IMG/VR virus record: IMGVR_UViG_3300047667_000629
Coordinates: 1 to 35,134 of that record
Source of the DNA: a virus
Reading direction: 5' to 3' (one strand)
Length of the DNA: 35,134 nt
The notes beneath the pieces are model-generated. The model worked only from the letters and a program-made list of their open reading frames with translations. It did not search any database and was not told the origin of the DNA. Every line of letters starts with the position of its first letter. The first letter of the stretch is position 1. Of the stretch, positions 1-11,025 are shown one piece after another. The translations under genes and the position numbers were made by a program.

Positions 1-93
1 GGAGCTTATTTTGCCATTGACTTTCGATACTTCTTTCCTACTGCCAAGGAAGACAAGAGGCCCAAGGTTAGGGTCGTCAAGTATAGGGGATAA
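1..93 (+). CDS. C-terminal end of a host protein (partial)
   Basis: Frame 1 reads about 30 residues without interruption and ends at TAA (91-93). The peptide is protein-like, with aromatic beta-strand-like residues followed by a basic tail ending KVRVVKYRG. I read it as the end of a host gene. The stop codon overlaps the first bases of the phage terminal motif, so the stop may be supplied by the phage and the gene may be interrupted. The product is not recognised. Confidence 0.45.
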   Translation, partial: GAYFAIDFRYFFPTAKEDKRPKVRVVKYRG

Positions 94-107
94 AACCAAA
101 GGCACAA
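92..107 (+). repeat. Left-end transposase site candidate (L1)
   Basis: AAAACCAAAGGCACAA matches the reverse complement of the two right-end motifs at 14 to 15 of 16 positions. A degenerate further copy may lie at 182-196 (one gap, two mismatches). Mu-type transposases bind several such sites inside each end. Assignment to MuA binding is inferred from position and inverted orientation. Confidence 0.6.
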
Positions 108-205
108 GTAAACAAAGCAAAAGAAGCCCGAAAAAAGCCCGTTAAATAAGCGATTGAAAGCAATACACCACGAGAGGCCCGAAAAACAAAGCGCAATAAA
201 AACCC

Positions 206-270
206 CATTCGGATGCGATTCGTGTGCGATTCGAACGCCATTCAATGTCGATTCAAATTCATTTGATTGG
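206..270 (+). repeat. 11-bp phased ATTC array, left copy
   Basis: Five units of the form [C/G]ATTC[G/A]NNNN[C] begin exactly 11 bp apart, with ATTC at 207, 218, 229, 240 and 251. A sixth degenerate unit (ATTT at 261) is one base out of phase. The array lies between the left terminus and the end of the repressor gene and overlaps its last codons. The core at 229-243 (ATTCGAACGCCATTC) recurs in the middle and near the right end of the phage. The 11-bp phase puts every unit on nearly the same face of the helix, which suggests cooperative protein binding. Confidence 0.7.
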
Positions 271-750
271 ATCCGCTCCTGGCTTATCCTGGTCTATCTG
301 CGATTTGATCTCCAGAAGTTCAGCACGAAGCTGCTCCACCTCTAGGCGCAGCTCCTTCGTAAGTTCTGCCACGTTCAAGAATAACCTCCCGCCAAGCACC
401 TGAACCTCCACCGCCTCATTGTTTTCATTTCCTTCCAGGCGCTCTCCTCTCTCTTCTGCACCTCTCTGAATTTTTAGTGTTGGGGTGACAGTTGGGGTGA
501 CAGTTGGGGTGACATTTTTATCTTCATTCTGAAGCATTTCACCCTCTCCAGTAAGCAGCCACCGCGCGTTGATTTGCGGATACATGACGCTAAACCTTTC
601 CAAAAGCTCAGCGCTGGGCGTTCTACCCTGGTTTATTTTACTCAATACAGAGTCAGAAGTGCCCATCTCTTTTGCTGCCGCATACCGCGACAGGCCGACC
701 TTTTTGATCGCTTGAAGGAATCGTCTAGATAAATTTTTTGCCCTTTCCAT
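259..750 (-). CDS. Phage repressor (C-like, XRE-type HTH)
   Basis: Codes for 163 residues. Residues about 5-60 form an XRE-type helix-turn-helix (SRYAAAKEMGTSDSVLSKIN), followed by a region ending in RWLLTGEGEML that is typical of short Bacteroidota phage repressors. The middle holds repeated TVTP units encoded by three 12-bp repeats. The C-terminus is a predicted coiled coil (ELTKELRLEVEQLRAELLEIK). It probably keeps the prophage silent by binding the palindrome at 779-800. A longer start at 822 is possible but would cover the operator and the early promoter, so the ATG at 750 is preferred. The gene points away from the transposition genes, as repressor c does in Mu. Confidence 0.85.
   Translation of the reverse strand: MERAKNLSRRFLQAIKKVGLSRYAAAKEMGTSDSVLSKINQGRTPSAELLERFSVMYPQINARWLLTGEGEMLQNEDKNVTPTVTPTVTPTLKIQRGAEERGERLEGNENNEAVEVQVLGGRLFLNVAELTKELRLEVEQLRAELLEIKSQIDQDKPGADPIK
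479..514 (-). repeat. Three tandem 12-bp repeats inside the repressor gene
   Basis: GTTGGGGTGACA is present three times in perfect tandem (479-490, 491-502, 503-514). It encodes repeated TVTP tetrapeptides in the linker between the DNA-binding domain and the C-terminal coiled coil. Gain or loss of a unit by slippage keeps the frame and changes linker length by four residues. Confidence 0.9.
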
Positions 751-781
751 TTGGATACTACTTTCCAATCGTTTAGGTTTG
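750..781 (+). promoter_or_regulatory. Early promoter (Bacteroidota type)
   Basis: TTTG at 750-753 is followed after 20 nt by TAGGTTTG at 774-781, an exact match to the TAnnTTTG -7 box used by Bacteroidota primary sigma factor. It points rightward into the Ner-like gene and the transposition operon. The -7 box overlaps the left arm of the palindrome at 779-800, so a protein bound there would block transcription. Confidence 0.75.
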
Positions 782-800
782 TCCCAATAAATAGGGACAA
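779..800. promoter_or_regulatory. Palindromic operator between repressor and Ner genes
   Basis: TTGTCCC (779-785) and GGGACAA (794-800) form perfect 7-bp arms with an 8-bp AT-rich spacer. The palindrome covers the early -7 box and expected transcription start and ends 6 bp before the Ner ATG. It is the natural target for the repressor, the Ner-like protein, or both. Confidence 0.75.
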
Positions 801-805
801 CAAAT

Positions 806-1006
806 ATGAACAAAATTTCCATAGTTAGCGAATCTCTTCAGCACGGGGACCTGAGCTGGATCTCCAAGCAGACGACAATTCCATTCGATACAGTGCGCGC
901 AGTAATGGCTGGTAAAAGGAACTGGGACACCCCGAAAGGTCGCCGCATCAAGAAGGTCGCGGAGCTTTTAATAATGAGCCGCGAAGAGCTAAAAAAAGCA
1001 ATTTGA
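806..1006 (+). CDS. Ner-like HTH regulator
   Basis: A small basic protein of 66 residues. It is mostly helical with a likely helix-turn-helix around ISKQTTIPFDTVRAVMAGKRNW and a second helix pair in the C-terminal half. It is the first gene of the early operon, divergent from the repressor, which is the position of ner in Mu. There Ner limits early and repressor transcription. The stop overlaps the TTG start of the transposase gene (TTGA), implying translational coupling. Function is assigned from position and fold, as overall similarity to Ner is not evident by eye. Confidence 0.65.
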   Translation: MNKISIVSESLQHGDLSWISKQTTIPFDTVRAVMAGKRNWDTPKGRRIKKVAELLIMSREELKKAI

Positions 1007-2934
1007 TCTATCAGGACGACATACTGTATCTGCACTACGCAGACCTTGCTCCTGACCCCATCAGCGAAAGCGCCTACAAGCAAGGCAAGCGTCGCGGGAA
1101 CTTTCAAGTCCAAGGCCGTGGCGGCAATGGGCGCGAAGTTCTCATCGCCTATGAGTCACTGCCATCCAAATGGAAGGCAAAGCTCGCCGACAAGTACGGC
1201 GACCTCTACAGCTACTGCTCTGCGCAGATCATCAAGCCGCACCTGGTCTACTCAGACAAGGATGCTGAAACCATCAAGAACTTCATCACCTCCAAGGAGG
1301 AGCACCTTCCAGAAGAAGCGCAAGAAGCCTACCGCACCGCCTGCGCCTACCTCACACTGATGGCCATGAACAAGAGAGCCGCCCAGATCAAGAAGCTCGG
1401 CTTCCCTTCGAAGGGACAGCTCACGGACTCCATCCAGCGCTTGATCCAGGCCGAAGGAATCAAGCTACCATCCAACTACTCGAACCTCAAGCGAAAGCTC
1501 CGAGAATACGAAGAGAACGGAGCCACTGCCGTGATCTCTGGCAGATGGGGGAATTCGAACACCGAGAAGATCACAGAAGAGATCGAGAAGTGGATGGTGC
1601 TCGAAATGTGCCGCACACGCTTGAGTCCAGAGTCGGTTCACCAGCGCTACATGAAAGTGGCCAAGGATCTCGGCTTCAGGACTGACATCAGCGCCGAAGC
1701 ATTCAAGCACCGACTTGCTCAGCCTCACCTCTTCCAGCTCATCTCTCTGAAGCGATACGGCAAGAAGGACGTCAGAAGCAAAACAGGGCAGACCTTCAAG
1801 ATCGCGCCGCCAGTATATTCAAACGACTACTGGCAAGGAGATGGATCTGCCATTGATCTCGCCTTCAGAAATGAAGCAGGCAAGATCGGCATGGCCACCG
1901 TCTACATCGTAGTGGACGTGCTCACTGAGTCGATCATCGGCTGGTCGATCAACGAAGGAAAAAACAGAGAAGACTTCCAGCTTCAGCTCAAGGCATTCCG
2001 CCACGCGGTGAGAACCACAGGCTCCAAGCCTTACCAGTTGAAGTACGACAAACAGAAGGGCCACCTCACTGAGGAGGCGCAAAAGTTCTATGATTCACTT
2101 GCCACAGTCCACTTCCCGTCCAGAGCATACCGCTCTTCGAGTCGGAGAGTGGAGGGCATCTTCGGAAGACTCCAGCGCCAGATCCTGGCAGAGTACCCAT
2201 TCTGGACAGGGTTCGGACGCCACACCAGCAGCAAGCTCGCCAACTGGTACGACGCCGACAAGATGAACCGCAACCTCCACAACCTCCCGAACTACGAGGA
2301 GCTGTGCCAATTGTGGGAGGTTATCGTGAACGACTGGAACGCAGCAACGCACCCGAACAAGAAAGCATCCAGAGCCGAGTTCTACCAGTCGCGAAAGGAT
2401 CCAAAGGTTCCAGCAGTAGAGCTGCCAGAGATGGTGGAGATGTTCTTCAACGTGACCAAGCCAATGAAGTACCAGGCGAACGGCATCACGCTGACACGGA
2501 AGGGACACTCGACCACGTATGTGGTGTACAACGAGAAGGGACTGGTGGACTACAAGTTCCGCGAGAAGTACCTCAAGGCCGCGCTCCATGTCAAGTACGA
2601 CCCAGAATTTGAATATCCAGAGGTGGAGCTGTACGCTCCAACACCCAGCGGAGATATGCGCTTCGTCGCAACAGCACAGCCAGCCAGAGAGACCCACGAC
2701 GTGGTGAAGTACCTGGAGCCAGGCGAGCGCCAGTACATAGACGAAGAACTTCAGAACGAGGACGACTTCTACACGCACCTGGATACAAAGGCCAACGCTC
2801 TCGGATACGACGAGACAGAGGTGATGACATCCTGGCGCTCGAAGATCGGCCTCAGACCTACCAAGAAAAAACAAACAGTTGACGCCGCCACGGATACCCG
2901 CAGCGATGAAGACTTTCTCCTTGATCAATTATAA
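1003..2934 (+). CDS. MuA-type DDE transposase (A protein)
   Basis: Codes for 643 residues, close to Mu A (663). The N-terminal part (about 1-65) resembles the Mu-type DNA-binding domain (GREVLIAYESLPSKWKAKL), followed by helical end-binding regions to about 260. The RNase H-like core holds an apparent catalytic triad: D280 in YWQGDGSAI, D349 in LKYDKQKGH and E384 in SSRRVEGIFGRL. A Mu-type C-terminal beta-barrel region with TLTRKGHSTTYVVY follows, and the tail should contact MuB. The start is TTG at 1003, overlapping the Ner stop. It cuts and joins the phage ends during integration and replicative transposition. Confidence 0.95.
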   Translation: MIYQDDILYLHYADLAPDPISESAYKQGKRRGNFQVQGRGGNGREVLIAYESLPSKWKAKLADKYGDLYSYCSAQIIKPHLVYSDKDAETIKNFITSKEEHLPEEAQEAYRTACAYLTLMAMNKRAAQIKKLGFPSKGQLTDSIQRLIQAEGIKLPSNYSNLKRKLREYEENGATAVISGRWGNSNTEKITEEIEKWMVLEMCRTRLSPESVHQRYMKVAKDLGFRTDISAEAFKHRLAQPHLFQLISLKRYGKKDVRSKTGQTFKIAPPVYSNDYWQGDGSAIDLAFRNEAGKIGMATVYIVVDVLTESIIGWSINEGKNREDFQLQLKAFRHAVRTTGSKPYQLKYDKQKGHLTEEAQKFYDSLATVHFPSRAYRSSSRRVEGIFGRLQRQILAEYPFWTGFGRHTSSKLANWYDADKMNRNLHNLPNYEELCQLWEVIVNDWNAATHPNKKASRAEFYQSRKDPKVPAVELPEMVEMFFNVTKPMKYQANGITLTRKGHSTTYVVYNEKGLVDYKFREKYLKAALHVKYDPEFEYPEVELYAPTPSGDMRFVATAQPARETHDVVKYLEPGERQYIDEELQNEDDFYTHLDTKANALGYDETEVMTSWRSKIGLRPTKKKQTVDAATDTRSDEDFLLDQL

Positions 2935-2952
2935 ACACCAAAACCCAAAACA

Positions 2953-3813
2953 ATGAATGCACCGCTAGAACAAATCAGAGAATTAACACTGGAGAAGATC
3001 CAGTCCACAGGACTCTCACAGCGAAGGTATGCCAAGCAGGCAGGCTGCGCAGCCTCCACTATCACCGCGCTAAAAAATCGCGAGTGGTCAAAGTTTGGTG
3101 ACGACATGATCCAGAAGCTGGCCATCGCCTGCGGATACAACTCGCTAAGCTGGAAGACCGCCGAGACCACCAACATGAGACTGGTCTCATCTATCTGCAA
3201 CCGCGCACAGAGCCAGTCCATCTCGATGGCCATCACCGACATCGCTGGACGAGGGAAGACTCAAGGGTTCAAGGAATACACCAAGAGCCACAGGAATGTC
3301 TTCCACCTGAACTGCGCCGCCCACTGGACGAATAAGCTCTTTATGGAGAAGCTACTCCAGGAGCTAGGAGTGGACGGCAGCGCCCACGCTACCAGTAAGA
3401 AGTGCGAGATCGCCATCCAGGCACTGGCCCGCGTAGAGAAGCCGCTCCTCATTATCGACGAGGCTGACAAGCTGCGCGACTCCTCGCTGCTCTTCTTCAT
3501 TGAGATATACAACAGACTCGACGGCTACTGTGGAGTGATCCTGTCAGGCCAGAAGAATCTGGAGAAGAACATCGACAAAGGCCGCAAGCGCGACAAGCGT
3601 GGCTATAACGAGATATACTCTCGCATTGGTCGCCGCTTCATTGAGCTGAAGGCTGTGAGCCTGTCAGACACGGAGGCCATCTGCAAAGCGAATGGAATCA
3701 TCGAGCCGCAGCACATCAATGAGATTTACAACGACAGCGAAGGAGATCTCCGCAGAGTGAAGCGAGCCATCGAGGTGCTCCAGACCAAACTCAACAAAGC
3801 CGTCCCAGTATGA
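2953..3813 (+). CDS. MuB-type transposition ATPase (target selector)
   Basis: Codes for 286 residues. An N-terminal helix-turn-helix (about 20-45, LSQRRYAKQAGCAASTITAL) precedes an AAA+ core. Walker A is DIAGRGKT ending near residue 103, and Walker B is LLIIDEAD with D169 and E170. Mu B uses the same layout: an HTH domain and an ATPase that forms filaments on target DNA, delivers it to MuA and stimulates strand transfer. The ATG follows an A-rich leader without a Shine-Dalgarno sequence. The next gene starts at the stop (ATGA overlap). Confidence 0.92.
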   Translation: MNAPLEQIRELTLEKIQSTGLSQRRYAKQAGCAASTITALKNREWSKFGDDMIQKLAIACGYNSLSWKTAETTNMRLVSSICNRAQSQSISMAITDIAGRGKTQGFKEYTKSHRNVFHLNCAAHWTNKLFMEKLLQELGVDGSAHATSKKCEIAIQALARVEKPLLIIDEADKLRDSSLLFFIEIYNRLDGYCGVILSGQKNLEKNIDKGRKRDKRGYNEIYSRIGRRFIELKAVSLSDTEAICKANGIIEPQHINEIYNDSEGDLRRVKRAIEVLQTKLNKAVPV

Positions 3814-4187
3814 AAACCAAGGCCACAATCAGAACCAAGGCACTCACAGAGAGCGCCGTGAACGGATCCAACATTCGCCAGCGGGCGAAGATGACCCAGG
3901 ACGACTACGGTCTGCTATTCCTGGACACGGGCTGCGCCTTCATCGAGCACTTGTTCGATTTGCCAGGCTACGAGGACATGATGGACTTCTACCTCCGCGA
4001 CACTGCCTCCAGGTACTGGAAGTGGTGGAGAGCTGAGTGGATGAACCACGAGCGCTATGTCTACCGAGAGGTTCAGGACTGCTGGCGCAAGGATAGCAGC
4101 GAAACCATCAAGAACCTCTTCAAGGAAATGATCACATCAAACCTAGTACATAAGTCTTTTATGAATCACGTCAAAAACCTCATTTAA
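3810..4187 (+). CDS. Conserved early protein, unknown function
   Basis: Codes for 125 residues and overlaps the MuB stop by 4 nt, so it is translationally coupled. The N-terminus is basic, the middle is rich in aromatic and acidic residues (DDYGLLFLDTGCAFIEHLF, YWKWWRAEW), and the protein appears all-helical. No signal peptide or membrane segment is visible. No known family is recognised. Its place right after MuB suggests a role in early replication or host takeover, but this is inference from position only. Confidence 0.75.
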   Translation: MKTKATIRTKALTESAVNGSNIRQRAKMTQDDYGLLFLDTGCAFIEHLFDLPGYEDMMDFYLRDTASRYWKWWRAEWMNHERYVYREVQDCWRKDSSETIKNLFKEMITSNLVHKSFMNHVKNLI

Positions 4188-4188
4188 C

Positions 4189-4449
4189 ATGAAACGAGCA
4201 AGGAACAACAGCGTCCAAAACCGCACCAACTACGAAGAGAAAATCGCCACAGCGAAGGCCCGCATCGAGAAACTCGAAAAGGACTACAACTGTATGGGCG
4301 ACAATTGGCTCACCGACATCCGCGCGATCCACAACCTCCAGGTGAATGTCTCCATCTGGAAGAAGGTCGTGAACAACCTTCGCCACCACATCCCATCCCA
4401 CGGAGAGCCTGTGGGATCCTTTCAAAATTCAAATTTAGTAATACAGTAA
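4189..4449 (+). CDS. Small coiled-coil early protein, unknown
   Basis: Codes for 86 residues, starting 1 nt after the previous stop with a TTTAAC leader. Residues about 14-32 form a likely coiled coil (NYEEKIATAKARIEKLEKDY), followed by a basic helical segment. The final 12 residues lie in locally AT-rich DNA that also serves as the leader of the next gene. The family is not recognised. Confidence 0.7.
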   Translation: MKRARNNSVQNRTNYEEKIATAKARIEKLEKDYNCMGDNWLTDIRAIHNLQVNVSIWKKVVNNLRHHIPSHGEPVGSFQNSNLVIQ

Positions 4450-4451
4450 CG

Positions 4452-5060
4452 ATGAAAACATGGACAGACGAGAAGGGCCACGAGATCCCATACTCAAGAA
4501 TCACAAAGCTGGAGAAGCGCACCCAGCGCGAGACGAAGAAGCTCCTGCGCAAAGCTCAAAGCATCAACACAAAGCTGGTGGACTTCAAGACAGAGGTCGC
4601 CATCATTGCAGAGGAGCTATGGATCTCTACCATCCAGGAGGCTGGCTCCAAAACGAAGGACAGCAAGGGCAATATCACCATCTACAACTTCGACCGCTCC
4701 ATCAAGATGGAGGTCAATGTGGCCACGCCGATCAAGTTCGACGACGCGCTGATCGCAGTGGCCCGCGAGAAGTTCAACGAGTTCCTGGATGTCAGCACGG
4801 CCAATGTCGAGGACTTTATGAAGGAGATGATTCACAGCGCATTTGAAACGAGTCGAGGACAACTGGACACGAAGCAAGTGATGGATCTCGTGAGCCTGCG
4901 CAAGCGAGTAGACCGCGCCAGGTTCCCGCTCTTCCATGAGGCCATTGATCTCATCGAGGACAGCATCCGCCGACCAAGTTCGAAGAAGTACTTCAGGATC
5001 TGGTACAAGGACGAGGCCAATGAGTACCAGATCGTTGATCTAAATTTCAGTTCCATCTGA
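4452..5060 (+). CDS. DUF3164-like early protein
   Basis: Codes for 202 residues. The start at 4452 follows an AT-rich leader; an upstream in-frame start at 4305 would overlap the previous gene and its extra residues are not protein-like. The sequence begins WTDEKGHEIPYSRITKLEK and continues with a helical region. A beta segment (NITIYNFDRSIKMEVNVATPI) follows, then another helical stretch. This matches the DUF3164 family found in the early region of Mu-like phages. Its molecular role is unknown. The final TGA overlaps a possible ATG of the next gene. Confidence 0.8.
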   Translation: MKTWTDEKGHEIPYSRITKLEKRTQRETKKLLRKAQSINTKLVDFKTEVAIIAEELWISTIQEAGSKTKDSKGNITIYNFDRSIKMEVNVATPIKFDDALIAVAREKFNEFLDVSTANVEDFMKEMIHSAFETSRGQLDTKQVMDLVSLRKRVDRARFPLFHEAIDLIEDSIRRPSSKKYFRIWYKDEANEYQIVDLNFSSI

Positions 5061-5092
5061 TGCTTCCGAATAGCATCACAACCATAAACAAA

Positions 5093-5581
5093 ATGAAACA
5101 AGCAGCTAAATGGGCCTTTTTCACTGGCCTCCTTATACTTTTATCTATCGCCTGCCAGGCACAGCTCACCATCAAGGGAGAGCTGAGATCTCACAGCCCT
5201 GCCGTGATCACACTCACACACCAGAGCGATGGCAACAGCTACCCACTCTATCACCTCAAGAGCAAGGAGAAGATGGTGGACAACGAGCTGGTCTACGTTA
5301 CAAAGTACCGCTTCCCGTGGTCGTTCGAAAAGAATTATAGTTATAGCCTAGTATTCGAAGACGGCACCGTGAGCAAGACGATCATCATTCACGGGCCAGT
5401 GCCAGAAGGGATCCATCCCGTGCAGCGCCTCGACGTGATCGTTGACCTCACCAACATGACCACCGCCGACGAGACTCTCGTGATCTACTGGAGCGAGAAG
5501 CACGACGAGTACTGGCAGCGCCCGCTCTACGAGCTGGACAAAATAAACGATGAAGCCTTCCGACCTCTCTCCGCCAACTGA
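5093..5581 (+). CDS. Secreted beta-rich protein, unknown
   Basis: Codes for 162 residues from the ATG at 5093; an ATG at 5060 overlaps the previous stop but would put 11 polar residues before the signal. The N-terminus is a signal peptide: KQAAK, a hydrophobic core (WAFFTGLLILLSI), then ACQAQ, a likely signal peptidase I site typical of Bacteroidota. The mature part is beta-rich (QLTIKGELRSHSPAVITLTH, YSYSLVFEDGTVSKTIIIHG). It would act in the periplasm or at the surface. An exported protein amid replication genes is unusual; superinfection exclusion is one speculation. Family not recognised. Confidence 0.72.
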   Translation: MKQAAKWAFFTGLLILLSIACQAQLTIKGELRSHSPAVITLTHQSDGNSYPLYHLKSKEKMVDNELVYVTKYRFPWSFEKNYSYSLVFEDGTVSKTIIIHGPVPEGIHPVQRLDVIVDLTNMTTADETLVIYWSEKHDEYWQRPLYELDKINDEAFRPLSAN

Positions 5582-5796
5582 TGGCAAGCGGAGTGTCACT
5601 GGACGATCAGATCGCGGAGGTCAACAGAGAGCTGAAGCTCCGCCTGAAGATGTACCCGAAATGGATGAGCCTCGGACAGCTCAAGCGAGCCGACGCCAAC
5701 AAGCAATACAACGCCCTCCTGGCTACACGCAACAGCCTGGAGCGGCTTCAAGGAATCGAAGAAGGACAACAGGCCAGCCTGTCCCTTGAAGAGTAA
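5581..5796 (+). CDS. Small conserved phage protein, unknown
   Basis: Codes for 71 residues and starts on the last base of the previous stop (TGATG overlap). The pattern VSLDDQIAEVNRELKLRLKMYPKWMSLGQL followed by a charged helix resembles a widespread small phage protein with the core EVxRELxLRxxxYPxW. Its function is unknown. It is mostly helical and soluble. It precedes the tRNA-like element. Confidence 0.72.
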   Translation: MASGVSLDDQIAEVNRELKLRLKMYPKWMSLGQLKRADANKQYNALLATRNSLERLQGIEEGQQASLSLEE

Positions 5797-5803
5797 GCTC
5801 TCA

Positions 5804-5854
5804 TCCCCTTGCCAGTCGGTGGCGCACCAGGTTCGAGTCCTGAATGGGGAGCCA
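5804..5854 (+). ncRNA. tRNA-like element lacking an anticodon arm
   Basis: The 51 nt fold as a mini-tRNA. The acceptor stem is TCCCCTT (5804-5810) with ATGGGGA (5844-5850), 6 of 7 pairs. The D arm is GCC-AGTCGGT-GGC (5811-5823), with the GG of the D loop. The T arm is CCAGG-TTCGAGT-CCTGA (5827-5843), 4 of 5 pairs with a canonical TTCGAGT loop. The discriminator is G5851 and CCA (5852-5854) is encoded. The anticodon arm and variable loop are absent. It fills the gap between two early genes and cannot decode. It may be a decayed tRNA or a processing signal for RNase P and CCA-recognising enzymes in the early mRNA. Confidence 0.55.
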
Positions 5855-5875
5855 ATAAATTAACACCGCCGCAAT

Positions 5876-6520
5876 ATGACCAAAGTACTAGGAGTAAACC
5901 AGGTGCTCCAGAAAAACTACCGCATCCTGGAAGAGATCCCGCAGTGGATCACCGACACCGTCGGAGTCCTTCCAGATCCTTTCCACATCCAAGTGATCGG
6001 CAAACCGAAGAACGGGAAGACCTCCTTCGTGATGCAGCTCGTGAAGTCGCTGGCCTCACGGTACGACATATTCTACAGCAGCCTGGAGGAGGGCGACAGT
6101 AAAACGATCCAGGACGCCTTCAAGCGCGTGAACATGACGGAAGTCGCTGGCAAGGTAATGCTGGGCGATGGCTTCTACTTCAACCAGCTCATGGAGTACC
6201 TCCGTGGCCCTGGTCGCCGCAAGAAGATCGTCGTGATCGACTCGCTCGACTACATGAAGCTGACCAAACTCCAGTACATCAAACTGATCGAGACCTTTCC
6301 CAGGAAGAGCTTCATCATCATCTGCTGGGGAGGCATGAAGGCCCGCGAGTTCGTCTGTGACGACTACTATGGCAACCAGATCAAGTACATGATGGGCGCC
6401 ATCGTCGGCGTGTCCAGCTTCAAGACCCACACCGTGGGGAGATACGGCCCCTGCGAGAGCCACACCATCTGGGCGGAAGGCGCCAAAGTTCAACACGCAA
6501 AACAACTCCAATTAATATGA
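5876..6520 (+). CDS. RecA/DnaB-like P-loop ATPase
   Basis: Codes for 214 residues. Walker A is GKPKNGKT at 42-49 and Walker B is IVVIDSLD at 118-125, with strand FIIICWGG near 147-154 as the next core strand. This order fits a RecA/RadA/DnaB-type ATPase with a single domain. The C-terminus lacks an obvious DNA-binding extension. In the early operon it may serve in replication, recombination or host takeover; the exact partner cannot be told. It follows the tRNA-like element after a short AT-rich leader and overlaps the next gene by 4 nt. Confidence 0.78.
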   Translation: MTKVLGVNQVLQKNYRILEEIPQWITDTVGVLPDPFHIQVIGKPKNGKTSFVMQLVKSLASRYDIFYSSLEEGDSKTIQDAFKRVNMTEVAGKVMLGDGFYFNQLMEYLRGPGRRKKIVVIDSLDYMKLTKLQYIKLIETFPRKSFIIICWGGMKAREFVCDDYYGNQIKYMMGAIVGVSSFKTHTVGRYGPCESHTIWAEGAKVQHAKQLQLI

Positions 6521-6909
6521 GCAAATTCGCCCGCTTTTTTGCTGCGCTCAAGGCAGCCGAGCAACAAATAAAGCAGAAGATCGACCGCCACGATCTCATT
6601 CACGACTTCACCAAAGGCCGCACCCAGTCGCTCACCGATCTGTCGATGGGCGAGCTGAACGAGCTGATCACTCAGCTCGGCGCACAGAATTACGACCCCT
6701 GTGATCGGATGCGCAAGAAGATCATCTCCATGCTGAAGTACCAGGGATACCAGCTACCAAGCGGCAAGGCCGACATGGTGCGGATCTACGCCTTCATTCT
6801 AAAGTACGGCTACCTCCACAAACACCTGAACGAATACTCGGAGGAGGATCTTCCCAAACTCGTGTACCAAGCCGAGACAATGAAAAAGAAATACATCGCA
6901 AACCTATGA
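6517..6909 (+). CDS. Possible GemA/gp16-like regulator (DUF1018-like)
   Basis: Codes for 130 helical residues. The layout (LIHDFTKGRTQSLTDLSMGELNELI, then RMRKKIISMLKY, DMVRIYAFILKYGYLHKHLNEYSEEDLPKLV) recalls gp16/GemA-type early proteins of Mu-like phages. Those have paired helical repeats and a C-terminal segment in which leucines follow an SxxEL motif. Mu GemA affects host gyrase and transcription. The similarity is by pattern only. It overlaps both neighbours by 4 nt (ATGA), so it is co-translated. Confidence 0.5.
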   Translation: MSKFARFFAALKAAEQQIKQKIDRHDLIHDFTKGRTQSLTDLSMGELNELITQLGAQNYDPCDRMRKKIISMLKYQGYQLPSGKADMVRIYAFILKYGYLHKHLNEYSEEDLPKLVYQAETMKKKYIANL

Positions 6910-7211
6910 GAGAGCACACCATCAAAGTCACGCACTGCGGCCTTCAGGCGCTGGTCAATACACTGGAGAGCGAGCAGCTCCCCAGCCCTCACAGCAAAGG
7001 GATCGACAAATTACTGGAGAGCCTCAAGGTGAGCCTCATCATTCGCTTCCGCAAGAAGCTGCTGGTGTCGCAACCTACCTACAAGTTCAAGCTGCCGATG
7101 CACGAAGCGCTAGGACTCCAGGAGATCCTCGGCCTCTGCCTCACTCAAGGCCATTTCGAGTACAACGAGATGAACCAGCTCACTGCCAGAATAGACCAGT
7201 ACTACGCATGA
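6906..7211 (+). CDS. Small early protein, unknown
   Basis: Codes for 101 residues, coupled to both neighbours by 4-nt overlaps. It has two likely helical halves, with a basic centre (IIRFRKKLLVSQPTYKFKLPMHEALGLQEIL). No membrane segment, metal site or known motif is visible. The family is not recognised. Confidence 0.7.
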   Translation: MREHTIKVTHCGLQALVNTLESEQLPSPHSKGIDKLLESLKVSLIIRFRKKLLVSQPTYKFKLPMHEALGLQEILGLCLTQGHFEYNEMNQLTARIDQYYA

Positions 7212-9997: not shown

Positions 9998-10008
9998 ATC
10001 CCTAAACC

Positions 10009-10290
10009 ATGAAAGACTCAAACCGCAAGCACCTGAAGCTGGGAATTGTTGGCGCTGCCAACTCTGGCAAGACCTACCTCCCGACGCAAGGCTCCGCGTG
10101 TATCATTGACCCGCGCCTGGGTCTCTTAATGGTAGAGCCAGAAGAGCCTCTCGTCTTTACGATACACGCGAGGCCGCCCTTGCCAGATGTTTGGGTTGAT
10201 CCTTCAGCTCCTGTTTTTAACCAGGCCAAACACCAGCGGAGCTGCACCAAGAACCGAAGGAAACGAAAGAAGAAAAAACAGCGAAGCTAG
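10009..10290 (+). CDS. Unknown protein with P-loop-like start and basic tail
   Basis: Codes for 93 residues. The N-terminal GIVGAANSGKT has the spacing of a Walker A motif (GAANSGKT), but no Walker B strand follows. The protein ends in a run of Lys and Arg (KNRRKRKKKKQRS). It is either a short protein or the truncated start of a P-loop ATPase fused to unrelated DNA. The stop lies 17 nt before the first attC-like site, so a recombination event may have shaped its 3' end. Confidence 0.4.
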   Translation: MKDSNRKHLKLGIVGAANSGKTYLPTQGSACIIDPRLGLLMVEPEEPLVFTIHARPPLPDVWVDPSAPVFNQAKHQRSCTKNRRKRKKKKQRS

Positions 10291-10306
10291 TGGTGTGCCA
10301 GATGGC

Positions 10307-10368
10307 TGCCAACGGTTAGGGTATGGTGTCGGTTGCTTTTCGCAACTGCACTATAACCAGTGTTAGGT
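10307..10368 (+). repeat. attC-like recombination site, upstream of the cassette
   Basis: The site begins TGCCAAC (10307-10313, R''-like) and ends GTTAGGT (10362-10368, R'-like, exact match to GTTRRRY). Between them an imperfect hairpin pairs GGTTA with TAACC, GTG with CAC, and GTTGC with GCAAC around a short T-rich loop. At 62 nt it is within the usual attC size range. Cleavage in such sites falls between G and TT, here 10362/10363. Confidence 0.6.
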
Positions 10369-11005
10369 GTAGTATGAACGGATTAAAAGAACGAAATATG
10401 AAATATAAAACGATAGTAATAGACCCGCCTTGGAAGTACGGCAAATGGGGTAGTGGAAGTGAAAAGGCTTTAGTGCAAGGCGAGGCAAATAAACCTGCAC
10501 CACTACCTTATGAATGGATGACAGTAGAAGATATAAAAGCACTACCAATTAAAAGCCTTCGTGATGAAAATTGCGAGGTTTATTTATGGACTACACAAAA
10601 ATATTTACCTGATGCTTTTGCCGTATTAGATGCGTGGGGTTTAAAGTACTGCCAAACATTGACTTGGTGTAAAAAACCTATGGGTACAGGGCAAGGAGGG
10701 GTTTACTGCCCTACAACAGAGTTTTTGTTACTTGCAAGACGTGGTAAGATGCCAATAGTTAAAAGAATAGATAGTACTTGGTGGGAACATAAAAGGCAAA
10801 AACGACATAGTAAAAAGCCTGAGTTCTTCCAAGACTTAATTGAAACTGTAAGCGAAGAACCCAGACTGGAAATGTTTGCAAGACGTGAGCGAAAAGGCTG
10901 GTCGGTTTTTGGTAATGAGGTTGGTAATAGCATTGACCTTAGTGAATATTACACCTAACACCAAGCTAAGGCGAGTGCGGCGCAGCCCATTCGCTTTAGC
11001 AACTG
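10363..11005 (+). mobile_element. Integron-type gene cassette carrying a methyltransferase
   Basis: The 643-bp unit starts TTAGGT and ends with a 59-nt attC-like site. The first bases (with preceding G: GTTAGGT) are perfectly complementary to R'' of its own attC (ACCTAAC, 10953-10959), the rule for integron cassettes. The following junction GTTGGC is complementary to the GCCAAC of the upstream site, as expected if the cassette entered a pre-existing attC. The gene stop codon lies in R''. Base composition is much more AT-rich than the phage. No integron integrase is in the window. Confidence 0.6.
10398..10958 (+). CDS. MT-A70 family adenine methyltransferase
   Basis: Codes for 186 residues. 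Motif DPPW at 9-12 in KTIVIDPPWKYG is the catalytic signature of MT-A70 N6-adenine methyltransferases. CEVYLWTTQKYLPDA and TEFLLLARRGKMP supply the SAM-fold strands, and the C-terminal part FFQDLIETVSEEPRLEMFARRERKGWSVFGNE is typical for phage members. It likely methylates adenine in DNA, shielding the phage from restriction as Mom does for Mu. ATG 10398 follows an A-rich leader; ATGs at 10374 and 10323 are alternatives, the latter inside the attC-like site. Low GC and different codon use mark it as recently acquired. Confidence 0.85.
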   Translation: MKYKTIVIDPPWKYGKWGSGSEKALVQGEANKPAPLPYEWMTVEDIKALPIKSLRDENCEVYLWTTQKYLPDAFAVLDAWGLKYCQTLTWCKKPMGTGQGGVYCPTTEFLLLARRGKMPIVKRIDSTWWEHKRQKRHSKKPEFFQDLIETVSEEPRLEMFARRERKGWSVFGNEVGNSIDLSEYYT

Positions 11006-11011
11006 TTGGCT
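10953..11011 (+). repeat. attC-like recombination site of the cassette
   Basis: ACCTAAC (10953-10959) matches R'' RYYYAAC exactly and contains the TAA stop of the methyltransferase. GTTGGCT (11005-11011) matches GTTRRRY at six of seven positions. Inside, AGCTAAGGCGAGTG pairs with CATTCGCTTTAGC as an imperfect stem. Length is 59 nt. The end GGCTGCC repeats the bases before the upstream site. Confidence 0.6.
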
Positions 11012-11025
11012 GCCGTCTTTAATTC

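Follow-up and report, generated by a model that had tools for sequence, protein, structure and literature searches.

The DNA analysed here (the window) is an entire IMG/VR record of 35,134 bases, a complete viral record. It belongs to a Mu-like phage whose MuA has relatives in Bacteroides, Porphyromonas and Winogradskyella phages and which appears to be a virus of Bacteroidota bacteria. At 10307-11007, an MT-A70 methyltransferase gene lies between two hairpins; its product shows both the PF05063 profile (1.8e-22) and the DPPW catalytic motif. An earlier note, made from the sequence alone, had read this region as an integron-type cassette within the phage, carrying an AT-rich methyltransferase gene of anti-restriction type. 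The profile match confirms the identity of the enzyme, whose sequence is consistent with such a cargo, and the base composition had been seen correctly (GC 0.396 for the cassette gene versus 0.532 ± 0.025 elsewhere in the window). As the note also stated, no integrase is present: the tyrosine-recombinase/IntI profile TIGR02249 matched nothing in the window or in 20 carrier contigs, and 25 of 26 carrier contigs, a set with many fragments in it, yielded no tyrosine recombinase. Rfam at gathering threshold returned no match, and no annotated phage with DNA similar to the window cassette was found. A 93-aa ORF beside the cassette (10009-10290) has no family match and is missing in a sibling phage. 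The features of the locus are as follows.

10313-10958, plus strand: mobile cassette (646 bp) of hairpin site, leader and methyltransferase gene; boundaries proposed by analogy with the L044/L045 indel and the 667-bp unit of L025/L032, with identical boundary sequences in other viral contigs
10307-10368, plus strand: attC-like hairpin site of the cassette, AAC-GGTTA-stem-loop-stem-AGT-GTT (covariance model R1, 42.2 bits, E 6.4e-8; DNA fold -12.1 kcal/mol, z -2.55)
10301-10313, plus strand: resident site, left outer arm: GATGGCTGCCAAC, whose other strand has A at position 11; crossover GCCAA↓C (pairing with 11005-11017)
10362-10375, plus strand: inner arm beside the hairpin, GTTAGGTGTAGTAT, with G at position 11 (13/14 match with 10946-10959; grammar as in 77 chromosomal and 17 phage cassettes)
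10362-10397, plus strand: constant non-coding leader, GTTAGGTGTAGTATGAACGGATTAAAAGAACGAAAT (92% mean identity in 14 cassettes whose proteins average 46%)
10398-10958, plus strand: MT-A70 family DNA methyltransferase, 186 aa, DPPW motif (PF05063 1.8e-22; PHROG 359 DNA methyltransferase 1.7e-43)
10946-10959, plus strand: inner arm at the 3′ end of the gene, ATATTACACCTAAC, with the stop codon inside; crossover CACCTAA↓C (arm matching with 10362-10375)
10957-11007, plus strand: resident hairpin site (E type), AAC-ACCAA-stem-loop-stem-AACT-GTT (in five phages, including this one, the last site found is of this type; fold)
11005-11017, plus strand: right outer arm, GTTGGCTGCCGTC, with G at position 11 (pairing with the left outer arm)
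9998-11016, no strand: segment exchanged in the sibling phage L001 (99% identical) for a 333-aa N6_N4 DNA methyltransferase

Hairpin sites and their arms

The covariance-model search that the earlier note had proposed was run with a model of our own, R1, built from 27 sites with the window left out. It gave a single match in the 35 kb, at the left hairpin (10307-10368), and no match in the sibling L001 or in Xer control loci. A simple stem search had missed this site because of a bulge. The idea that both sites fold holds for the left one, which on the plus strand folds better than shuffled sequences (z -2.55); the z of the right site, -1.46, is not significant alone. Compensatory changes back the hairpin at 7 of 11 pairs. 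The exact left hairpin was sought in viral contigs and gave no match. In the window, as in phages L024, L028, L037 and L039, an E-type site comes last among the sites found.

R1 also picked up sites around gp22 of Winogradskyella phage Peternella_1, an isolated Mu-like phage, and in two Polaribacter phages, P12002L and Danklef_1. In Peternella_1 (L160, 11440-11958) two sites flank gp22, of unknown function, and show 14-nt arms with the position-11 mismatch. P12002L (L038, 38032-38939) has a second group of sites, with model matches at 38032 and 38876, near a Mom-like gene and another methyltransferase. Chained R′/R″ arrays are present in phages L028, L024 and L020. In L031 (1152-1560) the cassette leader is followed by a 95-aa protein, DnaA-like by eye, in place of a methyltransferase, and the cassette is preceded by two tandem sites separated by a tiny spacer. 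A similar layout was seen in L016 (2980-3600), where an MT-A70 gene has 19-bp inverted arms and a hairpin unlike the Bacteroidota type; this arrangement possibly lies outside Bacteroidota.

The inner arms of the window, GTTAGGTGTAGTAT and ATATTACACCTAAC, are inverted repeats matching at 13 of 14 positions, the only pair to do so among the 2752 GTT/AAC pairs spaced 300-1000 bp apart in the window. They contain the complementary GTTAGGT and ACCTAAC that the earlier note had pointed out, which fit the R′/R″ consensus GTTRRRY/RYYYAAC, and the TAA stop codon falls within CCTAAC, that is in R″, as the note had also observed. The outer arms, GGCTGCCAAC and GTTGGCTGCC, match at nine of their first ten bases. 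Over their whole length (10301-10313 against 11005-11017) 11 of 13 positions are paired, with mismatches at position 7 and at the fixed position 11. The complementarity claimed for the outer halves GCCAAC and GTTGGC is thus real, although GTTGGCT and TGCCAAC, complementary over six bases, deviate from the GTTRRRY consensus. Written as GTTGGCTGCCGTC and GTTGGCAGCCATC, the outer arms of the resident site follow the same arm rule.

This rule is seen in 77 chromosomal cassettes, against 0.2 expected in shuffled sequence. Their ends match at positions 1-9 and 12-14 and have a fixed mismatch at position 11, where one end has A (77/77) and the hairpin end G (68/77). The requirement of six matching bases and 9/14 for detecting a cassette accounts for part of the early arm matches, but not for the position-11 rule. 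Among phage cassettes position 11 is A in 14/17 and G in 12/17, and the window agrees. In 11 canonical gammaproteobacterial cassettes complementarity ends after 7-8 nt.

Gain, loss and sharing of cassettes

Two pairs of phage contigs reveal which unit moves. The sequence that L044 and L045 share, about 1760 bases, is 100% identical; the one difference is a 949-bp unit present in L044, which consists of a hairpin and a methyltransferase and lies at TAAC between GTGCCTAAC and GGTTTAGG. The order in L044 is GTGCCTAAC, then AAGGTATTTGCG, hairpin, GTTATAGG, methyltransferase and ACCTATAAC, then GGTTTAGG. L025 and L032 have in common a 667-bp unit of hairpin and methyltransferase, 100% identical within unrelated flanks, with breaks at AAC and CCTAAC. 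In both pairs the hairpin upstream of the gene travels with it. A unit of gene and right hairpin moving together was also considered and was dropped, since the moving units comprise the left hairpin.

By the same token the window unit would be the left hairpin plus the gene, and the right hairpin would be resident. On this analogy the window cassette can be taken to run from GCCAA↓C (10313) to CACCTAA↓C (10958), with 10957-11007 as the resident landing site. The earlier note had rightly proposed a landing site in the phage, but its assignment of the right hairpin as the cassette's own attC did not hold. With the left hairpin as the cassette's own site, the orientation of the gene is the reverse of that in a canonical integron: attC is not 3′ of its gene, the moving units having their hairpin 5′, a layout extended to the window by homology. 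Gain or loss at G↓TT was observed in L044/L045, a related cassette rather than the window's own. In other viral contigs, GTTAGGTGTAGTATGAACGG opens and ACACCTAAC closes the relatives of the window methyltransferase, and the point where homology is lost generally lies close to these sequences or else at the distal end of the left hairpin. The 5′ end of the cassette was detected in 15 viral contigs; its 20-base leader was absent from 84,980 bacterial genomes.

Sibling phages had been suggested as a further check, with a different cassette or an empty joined site as the expected result. L001 does hold a different methyltransferase, the unrelated 333-aa N6_N4 enzyme, and has no hairpins at the locus. 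The position is therefore a methyltransferase locus, but this sibling is not an empty site. The joined site expected for the window phage (GCCAA↓CACCAAGC) was not found, nor was any empty-site relative. The same gene is flanked, on the left and on the right, by hairpins that differ from phage to phage; sites and genes must therefore also have been reshuffled in other ways.

The 14-bp inverted arms at both ends would also suit a small unit of transposon type, bounded by terminal inverted repeats and mobilised by MuA or an unknown transposase. There is no target-site duplication beyond the shared TAAC, however, and insertion is at the AAC of a hairpin site. Across different cassettes the arms vary in concert at both ends, as site-specific recombination predicts. 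A transposon-like unit is the least probable of the explanations considered.

Alternatively, the hairpins could be ordinary terminators or MITE-type repeats, and general homologous recombination could have replaced the gene at a variable phage locus. Base-exact ends at AAC in L044/L045 and L025/L032, the latter within unrelated flanks, contradict this, and terminators do not predict nested complementary arms, chained arrays or a fixed mismatch at position 11. Such an origin is very unlikely, even though the sibling holds a different methyltransferase at the same place without a hairpin, a simple hairpin adjoining the site in L039 has CGTTTTAATG loops as well, and the constant leader and 3′ end described below could act as arms for homologous exchange. 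The anatomy and boundaries of the cassettes, their gain or loss and their sharing between phages are supported here directly. Together, the R1 match, the arms and the exact indel in L044/L045 bear out the core of the original reading, an integron-type cassette in a Mu-like phage.

Cassette cargo

Fourteen cassette methyltransferases average 46% identity, falling to 38% in the middle (minimum 25%). Around the same genes, mean identity is 92% in the non-coding leader and 90% in the final 50 bases. Leader and tail served as search keys; each set was found by one key, and the other end was conserved too, except in L044, which has the tail only. In the MT-A70 set (window 10398-10958, L023-L044) a divergent core lies inside a constant leader and C-terminus, as if swapped. 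Our guess is that cores are replaced by homologous exchange between the constant ends. Other cassettes carry N6_N4 methyltransferases. Anti-restriction cargo dominates the sampled cassettes, in a sample that was itself seeded by a methyltransferase.

Chromosomal arrays and a probable recombinase in Flavobacteriaceae

A loop-based pattern identified 24 stretches in bacterial genomes, and those resembling real sites were all in Bacteroidota. Chained arrays were found in Tenacibaculum, Muriicola and Confluentibacter, the Tenacibaculum array being headed by a predicted 385-aa tyrosine recombinase with relatives in 59 of 120 sampled Flavobacteriaceae genomes (E 1e-60). Sites were present at 13 of 20 fetched Flavobacteriaceae recombinase loci; three of the seven site-less loci stop at a contig edge right after the recombinase. 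Of 67 sites, against 2.6 in shuffled sequences, 66 lie directly downstream of the recombinase with a polarity antiparallel to it, and at 12 of 16 loci an attI-like TATAAC..↓GTT lies 29-45 nt past the recombinase stop codon, with the first cassette joined there. As controls, the Xer loci of four Bacteroidota genomes were searched and had no sites. Complete integron-like loci, with recombinase, attI-like site after the stop codon and chained cassette arrays, were seen in L099 (a Tenacibaculum pelagium contig, 1-7013, with the recombinase at 5856-7013), L102 (Muriicola marianensis) and L139-L157. The recombinase and attI-like site beside these arrays, and the grammar that the arrays have in common with the phage cassettes, are observed directly.

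The recombinase matches TIGR02249 in two stretches, 2-181 and 240-315, at about 190-210 bits (cut-off 265), whereas true IntI proteins of a control class reach 300-500 bits, in most cases along the entire model. It lacks the insert of about 43 residues that forms the IntI-specific domain, and has an N-terminal extension of about 90 residues. It branches with IntI and not with Bacteroidota Xer, a placement to be read with caution because the branches are long.

These data also bear on the view that the window holds a classical cassette, a gene followed by its own right attC and mobilised by a canonical IntI. The inner GTTAGGT/ACCTAAC fit the classical consensus, the stop codon is in R″, and the related cassettes of L037 and L026 have a similar right hairpin. 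The left hairpin, however, belongs to the moving units, the outer GTTGGCT violates GTTRRRY, the arms are 14 nt long rather than the 7-8 nt of canonical gammaproteobacterial cassettes, and no TIGR02249 protein over the cut-off was found in 16 Bacteroidota genomes. A classical cassette is thus highly improbable. In this respect the earlier note was not upheld: the system is not of the classical IntI type, because its arms measure 14 nt, not about 7 nt, and the chromosomal recombinase is without the IntI-specific domain.

Phage and chromosomal cassettes differ in gene direction. In phages genes are co-directional with the site (24/25 upstream, 23/24 downstream), whereas in chromosomes they are opposed to it (27/27 upstream, 28/28 downstream); part of the chromosomal sample had been obtained with a single pattern, and the arrays found through the recombinase agree on direction. 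Because these directions are opposite, the phage cassettes were not simply taken from the sampled chromosomal arrays.

Discussion

The feature is, with high probability, a gene cassette of an integron-like Bacteroidota system, inserted at a resident phage hairpin and carrying a methyltransferase with a presumed anti-restriction role. In the mechanism proposed here, a host tyrosine recombinase would recognise folded hairpin sites of the form AAC-5/6 nt-stem-loop-stem-3 nt-GTT and cross over at G↓TT on one strand and AA↓C on the other. Folded single strands would be its substrate, and it may act while replicating phage DNA is single-stranded. A cassette of hairpin and methyltransferase would have entered at the AAC of the resident hairpin (10957-11007), leaving the gene between two hairpins whose complementary arms are nested. 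The enzyme would then modify phage DNA against host restriction, and exchange of cassettes would switch the specificity of modification. We infer that a Bacteroidota host recombinase most likely acts on the phage sites.

On balance, the combined data favour a broader reading, in which Bacteroidota have an integron class of their own, with an IntI-related recombinase that lacks the IntI-specific domain, an attI-like site, and 14-nt arms with a fixed mismatch. Beside it there would be a separate phage pool, with inverted genes and methyltransferases of constant ends and variable cores, exchanged by the host enzyme and changing modification specificity.

The IntI-specific domain is held to be essential. 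If the system described here is active, integron-type exchange works without this domain, and phages use an exchange system to trade anti-restriction genes. It comes with a set of sites that can be tested, with an enzyme and with a clear rule for the sequence. According to IntegronFinder 2.0, classical Bacteroidetes are nearly free of integrons, with In0 earlier and one complete integron in Salinibacter (PMC9024848); against this reported near-absence, about half of the sampled Flavobacteriaceae hold the recombinase.

That phages carry attC sites and methyltransferase cassettes is known from Qi et al. 2023 (PMC9892861). There, IntI1 recombined five out of six attC sites taken from virulent phages, and Polaribacter phage P12002L carries a two-methyltransferase CALIN, one of whose two attC sites was used by IntI1. 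The P12002L sites found here belong to the same site family as that of the window. A literature search covering mainly open-access journal articles found the inverted unit, the arm grammar and the Bacteroidota chromosomal platform described nowhere.

The phage-borne CALINs resemble the present system in having attC-bounded cassettes without an integrase and DNA methyltransferases as cargo; the inverted unit, 14-nt arms, exact gain or loss, shared cassettes and Bacteroidota platform are not described in the available text of PMC9892861, which makes no mention of Bacteroidetes. Orphan phage DNA methyltransferases (MT-A70/Dam-like) likewise stand alone in a phage, with no nuclease partner, whereas here the gene forms an exchangeable unit with constant ends and a variable core. 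XerA, XerC and XerD provide the closest solved structures (5HXY, XerA) and have the same simple domain layout; the present recombinase differs in its separate branch, nearer to IntI (long branches again urging caution), its N-terminal extension and its adjoining cassette arrays. With classical integrons the system shares site-specific cassettes, chained complementary R boxes and arrays beside a tyrosine recombinase with a primary site, and it differs from them in a chromosomal recombinase without the IntI insert, in 14-nt arms with a fixed mismatch and, in phages, in a gene inverted relative to its site.
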